Positions 49,275-52,603 of a DNA stretch of 64,000 nt are shown piece by piece (position 1 is the stretch's first letter; every line of letters starts with the position of its first letter). A program made the position numbers and the translations under genes. The stretch covers positions 1 to 64,000 of the forward strand of contig JAJPHM010000023.1 of NCBI GenBank assembly GCA_021325295.1. The letters run 5' to 3'. Origin of the DNA: Nitrososphaeraceae archaeon (GTDB taxonomy: Archaea; Thermoproteota; Nitrososphaeria; Nitrososphaerales; Nitrososphaeraceae). Under the pieces are notes generated by a model. It ran no database searches. It saw only the letters and a program-made list of their open reading frames with translations, and was not told the DNA's origin.

Positions 49275-49583
49275 ATGTATTACATGACAATGGATGTAGG
49301 AAATGTCACAGATAAAGGTCAAGTTACCATACCAAAACATCTTCGCAAAAAGTACAAGATTGATGATAAGGTCCTGTTTGTTGATACGGGAGACGGTGTT
49401 CTGGTAAGACAGGTACCGAAACTTTCAGAACTGAAAGGGATCTTGAAGGACTCGGTGGACCTTGACCGAATTAACCAGCAAGAGAAAAGACTTGAAGTAA
49501 CACGGCAGGAACGTCTCATGGCTGTGATTGAGCAGGCCAAAAATAAGAGAGAAAAGAGACTGGCAGATTGGCAAAGAAAATAG
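49275..49583 (+). CDS. vapB: AbrB-type antitoxin
   Basis: A 102-residue protein. The N-terminal swapped-hairpin is clear: GNVTDKGQVTIPKHLRKKYK. The rest is a helical toxin-binding part rich in Arg, Lys and Glu. The last 16 nt overlap the PIN gene, so it is coupled to it. An AT-rich element (ttacttataagttaag, about 49252-49267) lies closely upstream, so the start may be at a later Met (49284 or 49290). Intact pair with VapC. Confidence 0.8.
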   Translation: MYYMTMDVGNVTDKGQVTIPKHLRKKYKIDDKVLFVDTGDGVLVRQVPKLSELKGILKDSVDLDRINQQEKRLEVTRQERLMAVIEQAKNKREKRLADWQRK

Positions 49584-49987
49584 CAGTAGTGTTTGATAGC
49601 CAATCTCTGTTTTCTTTTTTCATGGGACAAGAGGGATCGGCTGAGGTTCAGGGTTTGTTGAGACAGATTGAGGCTGGAACGTGCGAAGGGTACATCAACA
49701 TCGTAAATCTGATAGAATTGCGTTACGTCCCTGCCCGAGCAGGAAAGGATTTCCTTGAGCAAAGCATAACCCGTTCTGGCATAAAAATTGTTCCGCTTGT
49801 AGTTGGGAATGTCTTGTGGAAAATTGCGGCCGAATTGAAGGCCAATTATGCCATCTCACTTGCAGATGCGTGTGCGGCTGCTACAGCAATATGGTTTGAT
49901 TGCGAGCTAGTGGCAGGCGCTGACCCAGAATTCAATCAATTACAAGATGCTGGCCTTATGAAAATACTGACCATTGGAAAGCTATAA
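49568..49987 (+). CDS. vapC: PIN-domain ribonuclease toxin
   Basis: A 139-residue PIN protein starting at TTG. The first catalytic Asp is in AVVFDSQSLFSFF, the second acid in NIVNLIELRYVPAR (Glu), and ISLADACAAATAIW and LVAGADPEF give the remaining acids. VapC toxins cleave tRNA or rRNA; the upstream AbrB-type protein is the antitoxin. The start overlaps vapB by 16 nt. All acids seem present, so it should be active. Confidence 0.83.
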   Translation: MAKKIAVVFDSQSLFSFFMGQEGSAEVQGLLRQIEAGTCEGYINIVNLIELRYVPARAGKDFLEQSITRSGIKIVPLVVGNVLWKIAAELKANYAISLADACAAATAIWFDCELVAGADPEFNQLQDAGLMKILTIGKL

Positions 49988-50466: not shown

Positions 50467-51387
50467 TTACGCTCCACCCAATGTCACTATCAAATCCGTG
50501 ATAAACCCGATGCACATGCCGACAAATATTCCTGTCATGATTACAGCATTTGTAGTCTGCCTTCTCCCAGAGTTGTACATGAGCATCGAGACATAGATCA
50601 GTGCCCCGCCTGCAATTGACAGAAACAGTATATACGCTATAGTCGAGATCCACAGGCTTCCGACTATGGTTCCCACAAATGTAGGGCCACCACCAACAAG
50701 GCCTGCCATGACAAGGAAACGGACATTTGGCTTTTTCACAAGCGATGTCAGAGGACCTGCAATGCCAAAGCCTTCGGTGGCATTGTGAGACCCAAAGCCC
50801 ACTATCAGCACAATAGCCAGACCTATTGCGCCTGTAGCATATGACTGACCTATCGCCAAGCCTTCGCTAAAGTTGTGCGCTCCTATGCCTATTGCAATCA
50901 TCATTGCCAGCTTGTAGGCAATCCTTGTCTGGATCAGCTGCTGTTGTTGTTGAAGCTGAGAACTGGAATTCGAAGAGCCCGGATTGCTGACCTGGCCGGG
51001 CTTGACAGAATCCAGATTGATGCTGGGATTGTTTTTCTTGGGAATGTTTTCTGCAAATGATGGCATTATGGGCTTGGGCATGTATCTTGACTCGTACCAC
51101 ACCAGACCAAGAAGGCTTATGGCAAGCCCTCCGAACATGGCGGCATAATCGAAAATGGCGTCATTGACAGAGGATTTGCCGGCAAGGGCATTGGTCGCAG
51201 CATCTGATGCAGATTCCCATGCGTGGCTGAAAACGTCGATTATGAGGAAAATCAGGATGCCAATTGCAAAAGCATTCAAAAACCCTTTTTTCTTTGCAGA
51301 TACATTCTGGAGAACTGCCAGAGGCAGGCCCAGGAATATGGTAAAGCCGGCAATTGCGCCAAGCAAAACAAGTTGCCAAAAGTCCAT
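50467..51387 (-). CDS. ZIP-family divalent metal transporter
   Basis: A 306-residue protein with eight membrane helices. The metal site helices are clear: GIGAHNFSEGLAIGQS (helix IV, H-N-x-x-E-G) and GFGSHNATEGFGIAG (helix V). A Gln/Ser-rich cytoplasmic loop separates helices III and IV. ZIP proteins import Zn, Fe or Mn. The start ATG is 3 nt from a 28-bp palindrome, and a TATA-like box (minus strand gtttaaatac, 51424-51433) lies further upstream, so transcription is probably repressed by a metal sensor. Substrate most likely Fe or Mn, judged from the operator. Confidence 0.85.
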   Translation of the reverse strand: MDFWQLVLLGAIAGFTIFLGLPLAVLQNVSAKKKGFLNAFAIGILIFLIIDVFSHAWESASDAATNALAGKSSVNDAIFDYAAMFGGLAISLLGLVWYESRYMPKPIMPSFAENIPKKNNPSINLDSVKPGQVSNPGSSNSSSQLQQQQQLIQTRIAYKLAMMIAIGIGAHNFSEGLAIGQSYATGAIGLAIVLIVGFGSHNATEGFGIAGPLTSLVKKPNVRFLVMAGLVGGGPTFVGTIVGSLWISTIAYILFLSIAGGALIYVSMLMYNSGRRQTTNAVIMTGIFVGMCIGFITDLIVTLGGA

Positions 51388-51390
51388 CAG

Positions 51391-51418
51391 TTAGGTTTAC
51401 CTAATTAGGCAAACCTAA
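51391..51418 (-). promoter_or_regulatory. DtxR/MntR-like palindromic operator of the ZIP gene
   Basis: An almost perfect 28-bp inverted repeat: TTAGGTTT at the left end mirrored by AAACCTAA at the right, with a CCTAATTAGG core, so two overlapping TTAGG/CCTAA units are present. The pattern resembles binding sites of DtxR/IdeR/MntR-type metal repressors, which archaea also have. It sits between the TATA box and the start codon, where a bound protein would block initiation. Confidence 0.75.
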
Positions 51419-51628
51419 TAACAGTATTTAAACAATCCTGTCCATTGCTACGATCCGTTAGACATATCGGCTCCTGCAAGCCTATTGTTGTACGACCGTG
51501 AATTTGCAAGAGATAAGATAAATCTTTAACCACTGACTGGGGAATACCCTAACCATAACCTCAGAGTGTAGCACTGTATAGCTAGCTTTATTTGGCACGG
51601 CACCAAGGTATTATTAGGAATTAAACAC

Positions 51629-52339: not shown

Positions 52340-52603
52340 TCAGATTGGATAATATTTGTACCTGGGACGTAATCGCTTGACACCAATCAAATATCGCGCT
52401 TCTAGGTCATGCAATATGTCAAAAAGCGCCGTGTCATTGATTCTTGCAAATCCCTGTTCACCATTGATAATTCCTACAGACCATTGAATCTCTTCAGATT
52501 CACAAAAGCTATGACCTCGAATATACTCAAGAACTCTACGCGCAAGCTCATCTAACTCATTGGCCAAGTTAGAATCTCGGTCGTTTGGTTCCTGATCACT
52601 CAT
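52340..52603 (-). CDS. Small winged-helix-like protein
   Basis: An 87-residue acidic protein with helices (ELDELARRVLEYIRGH and TALFDILHDLEARYLIG) and a basic C-terminal wing (VKRLRPRYKYYPI). It may be a small DNA-binding or anti-repressor protein. It is the last of three small genes on the minus strand (52340-53129). Not recognised. Confidence 0.45.
   Translation of the reverse strand: MSDQEPNDRDSNLANELDELARRVLEYIRGHSFCESEEIQWSVGIINGEQGFARINDTALFDILHDLEARYLIGVKRLRPRYKYYPI

Follow-up and report, generated by a model that had tools for sequence, protein, structure and literature searches.

Results

A double palindrome lies between the TATA box and the start codon of a ZIP gene

The window, i.e. 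the whole stretch of 64,000 nucleotides that was analysed, carries a gene for a ZIP-family metal transporter (Table 1). Against Pfam Zip the protein scored 51.2 bits (cut-off 35.1), and it matched solved ZIP structures weakly (E 4e-4). Moreover, HNxxEG motifs were found in two helices and were invariant in all seven aligned orthologues (H171, N172, E175 and H201, N202, E205), which together with the Pfam match places the protein among the ZIP transporters. The orthologues in named records belong to Thaumarchaeota/Nitrososphaeria, which assigns the archaeon to this group. Two adjoining genes for a MazE-like and a PIN-domain protein, likely a toxin-antitoxin pair, run convergent with ZIP (49275-49987, plus strand). 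Upstream of ZIP and on the same strand lies an 87-aa ORF (52340-52603, minus strand) with a faint PadR-like winged-helix match (E 0.089).

Direct reading of the plus strand at 51391-51418 gave TTAGGTTTACCTAATTAGGCAAACCTAA, a 28-bp palindrome in which 13 of 14 pairs are complementary. It is composed of two head-to-tail 14-mers, both exact copies of TTAGGN4CCTAA, so that each presumptive dimer site has the paired CCTAA half sites of a DtxR/IdeR operator. This confirmed a palindrome with paired TTAGG/CCTAA units between TATA box and ATG, as described in the original prediction, with two corrections. The units had been taken to overlap each other, but they abut, and the operator had been said to overlap the start of ZIP, but it leaves the ATG (51385-51387) uncovered and stops three bases short of it. 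On the other side six bases separate the 28-mer from the TATA box, whose first T is 14 bases ahead of the operator. With the usual archaeal TATA spacing, transcription would start at about 51400-51405 and thus inside the operator. The two dimer sites are offset by 14 bp and do not show the canonical 19-bp interlaced arrangement with its 5-bp offset.

Table 1. Features of the ZIP promoter region (positions in the window) and DtxR-family proteins encoded in the same genome
Feature	Position	Strand	Basis
ZIP-family metal transporter, 306 aa, predicted controlled gene	50467..51387	-	Pfam Zip PF02535
Operator unit on the side of the ZIP start codon, TTAGGTTTACCTAA	51391..51404	.	sequence; exact match, of which the genome has just two
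Operator unit on the side of the TATA box, TTAGGCAAACCTAA	51405..51418	.	sequence; the other exact place
TATA box of the ZIP promoter, TTTAAATA	51425..51432	-	sequence and geometry script
L016, DtxR-family protein, 154 aa	G000:C30:76071-76532 (locus L016:1483-1947)	-	PF01325 and PF02742
L017, MntR-type DtxR-family protein	G000:C59		NF003025 passed

The exact double site is unique in its genome

The genome comprises 2.69 Mb (2,691,817 bases) in 79 contigs, the window being contig C38. Exact TTAGGN4CCTAA was found only at the two adjacent places of the operator. By arithmetic, an exact 28-mer with its 20 fixed bases has a uniform expectation of about 2e-6 per genome. Weaker matches behaved differently: 18 other places differ from the 14-mer by one mismatch, and with up to one mismatch the pattern had 20 places as compared to 84 for the reversed control pattern. 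The relaxed double pattern (up to three mismatches) occurred at 4 places versus 20 for its control, and the other three places offered nothing better than three mismatches. In the window alone, the 14-mer with up to two mismatches was found 8 times where 24.7 were expected. Since the 14-mer with mismatches is not enriched in the window, the case stands on the exact double site. Thirteen of the 18 one-mismatch places were examined, seven of them inside long ORFs and six outside, and an ORF start was near only three (L013, L014, L015). Because so few have an ORF start nearby, we do not claim an own-genome regulon from these places. Accordingly, the scan for more TTAGG/CCTAA sites that had been proposed as a check found no second site of full strength in this genome, and hence no regulon there.

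The site is conserved upstream of ZIP orthologues

We fetched 46 ZIP orthologues from genome contigs and used the rest of the same loci as comparison sequence. In 32 of the 46, at least one 14-mer (up to one mismatch) lay within 300 bases upstream. Altogether, 62 such 14-mers (29 exact) were present in 13.7 kb of upstream sequence versus 15 (4 exact) in 394 kb elsewhere. Three of these four exact sites elsewhere fall on the first codons of a pentapeptide-repeat gene directly preceding ZIP (L054, L056, L092). Among the 14 orthologues without a 14-mer within 300 bases, three have one heading the ZIP operon at the pentapeptide gene, so that 11 of 46 have a 14-mer neither at the gene itself nor at the operon. 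Among these 11 are the three loci of Nitrosopumilus/Nitrosarchaeum and a set of MAGs with the label Bathyarchaeota. The double site is the arrangement of Nitrososphaeraceae (e.g. L019, L024, L048, L049, L051, L063, L089). In Nitrosotalea-type genomes two single 14-mers are found, one following the TATA box of ZIP and one following that of a divergent gene. The N4 spacers vary among the orthologues and the half sites are constant, which is what a protein-binding site would show; L018 and L023 were left out of this comparison.

Three further features were noticed at these loci. In several relatives (L021/L022/L051, L024, L019) a short ORF of about 13 to 47 codons, judged by eye, begins immediately behind the operator and terminates ahead of ZIP; in the window this place is taken by the start of ZIP. 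Another palindrome-rich element, TTATGACATAAGTTATAACATGGG, precedes ZIP and is not accompanied by a 14-mer in seven MAGs labelled Bathyarchaeota or Crenarchaeota (L062, L066, L071, L074, L080, L083, L085); it probably belongs to another regulator. Besides, a second palindrome, TTCTAAN4TTAGAA, lies between the divergent promoters at a Nitrosotalea ZIP gene (L070:4937-4952) and also near 14-mers at a sufB gene and a pentapeptide gene (L106 and L103, around 1440-1480).

Double sites precede ZIP, iron-uptake and other genes in Nitrososphaerales

Among 250 genomes of the order, 93 contained the double 14-mer with up to three mismatches. It had 156 places in total versus 26 for the reversed pattern. 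The count of 93 mixes two kinds of site because it includes Nitrosopumilus TTAGN6CTAA pairs located upstream of the TATA box. Similar sites are therefore found elsewhere in the order, although not at full strength a second time in the genome of the window. Within the family, 47 of 70 genomes had such a double site. Of 398 genomes sampled from the phylum, 21 had it with up to two mismatches, and only three of these belong to the 324 outside the order. At 44 of 70 loci, a TATA-like element was located no more than 20 bases from the operator, compared with 6.5% of random positions, and usually 8 to 15 bases ahead of it.

The strict set (up to one mismatch) comprised at least 34 genomes among the matches listed, 28 of them family members and 6 others, and loci were examined for 26 of these. 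The first gene behind the site was ZIP at seven loci, a small winged-helix gene at eight, FTR1 at two and feoB at two, where Pfam confirmed FTR1 at L109 and FeoB at L113 and the others of these classes were assigned by eye from sequence likeness. At the remaining loci it was an FTR1 fragment followed by dtxR (one), a gene for a secreted helical protein with no Pfam match (four) or unclear (two). Single exact 14-mers in six Nitrosotalea-type genomes were found at a multicopper oxidase gene (L098), at pentapeptide genes (L099, L103) and upstream of a sufB-like gene (L106).

In family f2 a double site lies at the start of a TFB-like gene (L115, L116, L118). Its product has about 215 aa with a TFIIB repeat and no zinc ribbon was seen in it; a metal-linked general transcription factor is possible.

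The weaker TTAGN6CTAA pairs of Nitrosopumilus (two to three mismatches) were rejected as the same operator on account of their position upstream of the TATA box, and they are probably sites of another factor. In Nitrosopumilaceae (L224-L236) we also observed TTAGN6CTAA 14-mers that directly adjoin one another in arrays of three or four units, with a length of up to 56 bp. Such arrays occurred in 13 of 250 genomes (G142, G154, G162, G168, G170, G184, G204, G230, G233, G239, G241, G243, G247) and in none with the control. They usually end about 40 bases ahead of the ATG, upstream of the TATA box, and are followed by genes for a 92-aa membrane protein or a zinc-ribbon protein of about 57 aa. This position suggests an activator or another factor.

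Two DtxR-family proteins are encoded in the same genome

A DtxR homologue had been named as a further check, and two DtxR-family proteins, L016 and L017, are encoded in the genome. L016 matched the N-terminal winged-helix domain PF01325 with 56.3 bits (cut-off 26) and the metal-binding and dimerisation domain PF02742 with 72.3 bits (cut-off 27). It reached no curated DtxR or MntR equivalog cut-off, scoring 60.1 bits for MntR (NF003025, cut-off 138) and 55.8 bits for actinobacterial DtxR (NF053665, cut-off 290). L017 scored 153.1 for NF003025 and thus lies above the cut-off of 138. In the alignment to Corynebacterium diphtheriae DtxR, which provides the residue numbering, L016 has the primary metal site of an iron-type DtxR/IdeR protein (Met10, Cys102, Glu105, His106). 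These four residues as well as Glu83 and Pro39 were kept in 30 of 30 L016 orthologues, and Gln43 in 28 of 30. At the DNA-contacting positions 37, 39, 40 and 43, as given in PMC8464063, L016 has Thr, Pro, Ser and Gln where DtxR has Ser, Pro, Thr and Gln. In L017, the recognition helix has Lys at position 43, where DtxR has Gln. The ancillary metal site of L016 is incomplete, with Thr/Ser for His79, no His98 and only Glu83 kept, and an SH3 domain is missing.

We compared the occurrence of the operator with that of IdeR-type dtxR in the 250 genomes. Both were present in 83, only the operator in 10, only dtxR in 67 and neither in 90. The co-occurrence was highly significant over all genomes (Fisher p 4e-14) and not significant within the family (p 0.20), and since the genomes are related and not independent these values are only indicative. 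The 67 dtxR-only genomes are mostly Nitrosopumilaceae with no double site, and seven of the ten operator-only genomes are family members of 66-87% completeness. In five relatives (G019, G024, G020, G001, G043) ZIP, operator and dtxR are found within about 3 kb, with the order dtxR, operator, ZIP in G019 and G024. Moreover, G021 has the operator upstream of dtxR, G112 has it in front of an FTR1 fragment and dtxR, and in G006 a winged-helix-dtxR gene pair is preceded by two exact 14-mers that lie three bases apart. In the genome of the window, dtxR (L016) has no such site upstream and does not adjoin ZIP.

Discussion

We interpret the 28-bp element as a double operator for an iron-activated repressor of the DtxR/IdeR type, a reading that we consider likely. 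With sufficient cytoplasmic Fe(II), metal-loaded L016 dimers would occupy the two abutting 14-mers. As the operator begins directly behind the TATA box, bound repressor would cover the expected transcription start, and initiation of the nearly leaderless ZIP mRNA would be blocked. When iron falls the repressor would leave, and ZIP would be made and import divalent metal, most likely iron. Since iron-uptake genes of many related archaea have this site in front of them as well, ZIP is probably switched on when iron is short. The original prediction of a metal-dependent operator is thus supported. It had compared the element with DtxR, IdeR and MntR sites, and TTAGGN4CCTAA is indeed the published consensus for a single IdeR dimer. 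Its two dimers are likewise backed by the recurring 14-bp spacing, with a predicted side-by-side docking.

Iron or manganese had been left as a choice. Iron is the more likely metal and manganese is less favoured, for two reasons. Of the two DtxR proteins, one has Met10 and Cys102 and the other is of the MntR type, and the site is also found at iron-uptake genes. Manganese control, in which L017 would read the site and ZIP would be a manganese importer, is quite unlikely in our view, even though a full MntR-type protein is present and ZIP transporters can carry manganese. The recognition helix of L017 with its lysine argues against it, as do the shared targets FTR1 and FeoB, which are iron systems, and the dtxR that travels with the operator, which is of the Met10/Cys102 type. 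Known MntR boxes, too, differ from TTAGGN4CCTAA. Met10 and Cys102 are described to favour iron over manganese (PMC10317159). In favour of manganese import, Nitrosopumilus is described to depend on carriers of the Tro and ZIP types for its divalent cations (PMC6776035). The site might instead be read by the small winged-helix protein (TrmB/ArsR-like, about 110 aa), DtxR being only a neighbour. In many relatives the operator precedes the gene of this protein, as at the eight loci mentioned above. The gene is also divergent from ZIP in Nitrosotalea devanaterra and precedes dtxR behind the two exact 14-mers of G006. Nevertheless, we regard this protein as an unlikely reader of the site. The genome G112 has two double sites (up to one and two mismatches, respectively) and dtxR but no match to the winged-helix profile, and therefore we take the small protein as a second-tier regulator. 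In addition, G104 and G078 gave only weak profile matches, and the genome of the window has only a distant paralogue (E 6e-18 versus 1e-49 to 1e-53 in g6). The Nitrosotalea protein contains neither Cys nor His, which would be odd in a metal sensor, and the 14-mer equals the IdeR consensus.

A role in copper limitation, with ZIP and multicopper oxidases in one regulon, appears very unlikely. It would be suited by G073, where a 14-mer marks the beginning of a multicopper oxidase gene, and by G070, where one marks the beginning of a pentapeptide gene with a multicopper oxidase gene behind it. The sites at FTR1, feoB and next to sufB, however, point to iron, and multicopper oxidases can be ferroxidases such as Fet3p (cited via PMC7785015). 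In Nitrososphaera viennensis, ZIP permeases (about 2.5-fold) and MCO1 were reported to rise under copper limitation (PMC7785015). The promoter motif of that study (TTCSGSMTTTGWACYANT) is likewise a metal-related element in the same archaeal family, but it is unrelated to ours and differs in sequence and position; its main text does not contain TTAGG, and ZIP is not among the genes it reports with the motif (PMC7785015). A palindrome that arose by chance and has no function could account for the single copy in the genome of the window. However, this explanation is contradicted by the double site being conserved at orthologous ZIP genes while its N4 spacers vary freely, and the strong enrichment over the control in the 250 genomes also makes it extremely improbable.

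Iron-activated repression of ZIP would belong to a kind of control that is already known, since DtxR-family metal regulons have been described, archaea included; what differs from the interlaced 19-mer is the abutting of two 14-bp units. Archaeal DtxR-family regulons were reportedly surveyed by Leyn and Rodionov in 2015, and what is said to emerge there, namely that DtxR-family proteins control FeoB, ZIP and further genes for metal uptake, would be shared with our system. In Actinobacteria, one IdeR dimer binds the 14-bp TTAGGNNNNCCTAA and the full 19-mer is bound by two dimers on opposite faces (PMC8464063). The canonical 19-mer TTAGGTTAGSCTAACCTAA overlaps the promoter or the start of the repressed genes (PMC10317159), and repression is explained by covering the promoter (PMC7762939; PMC10317159). 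With these boxes, which hold four CCTAA repeats for two dimers, the archaeal element shares the CCTAA half sites and one TTAGGN4CCTAA per dimer as well as a target in metal uptake. Its place between TATA box and ATG would also put it next to the core promoter and over the transcription start, as in those boxes. In contrast, the dimer sites are interlaced with a 5-bp offset there and abut with a 14-bp offset here, and the regulator here, unlike actinobacterial DtxR/IdeR, lacks an SH3 domain and keeps only part of the ancillary metal site. The single-dimer IdeR half site of Saccharopolyspora erythraea has the same 14-bp consensus, whereas in our archaeal promoter this consensus occurs twice, one copy next to the other.

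Iron sensing and import by ammonia-oxidising archaea are poorly known. The available text of an iron study of Nitrosopumilus maritimus contains no mention of DtxR, and its authors found no iron-specific importer and proposed generalist ZIP/Tro carriers (PMC6776035). In the open papers that we searched there was no description of this regulator or site in the lineage, which is not proof of absence in print. The operator, its likely regulator and the shared targets (ZIP, FTR1, FeoB, the small regulator and possibly multicopper oxidases) form a set that is testable in cultured relatives. Some metal genes that have been discussed under copper may be controlled by iron. More tentatively, the site could mark an iron regulon of the whole Nitrososphaerales lineage, with a new DtxR arrangement of two dimers end to end on abutting 14-mers that couples ZIP, multicopper oxidases and pentapeptide-repeat surface proteins, the oxidases acting as ferroxidases in a Fet3/Ftr1-like iron import of ammonia-oxidising archaea. 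We consider this wider scheme conceivable but doubtful. If it is true, multicopper oxidases, which have so far been read as copper-uptake factors, would serve iron import.
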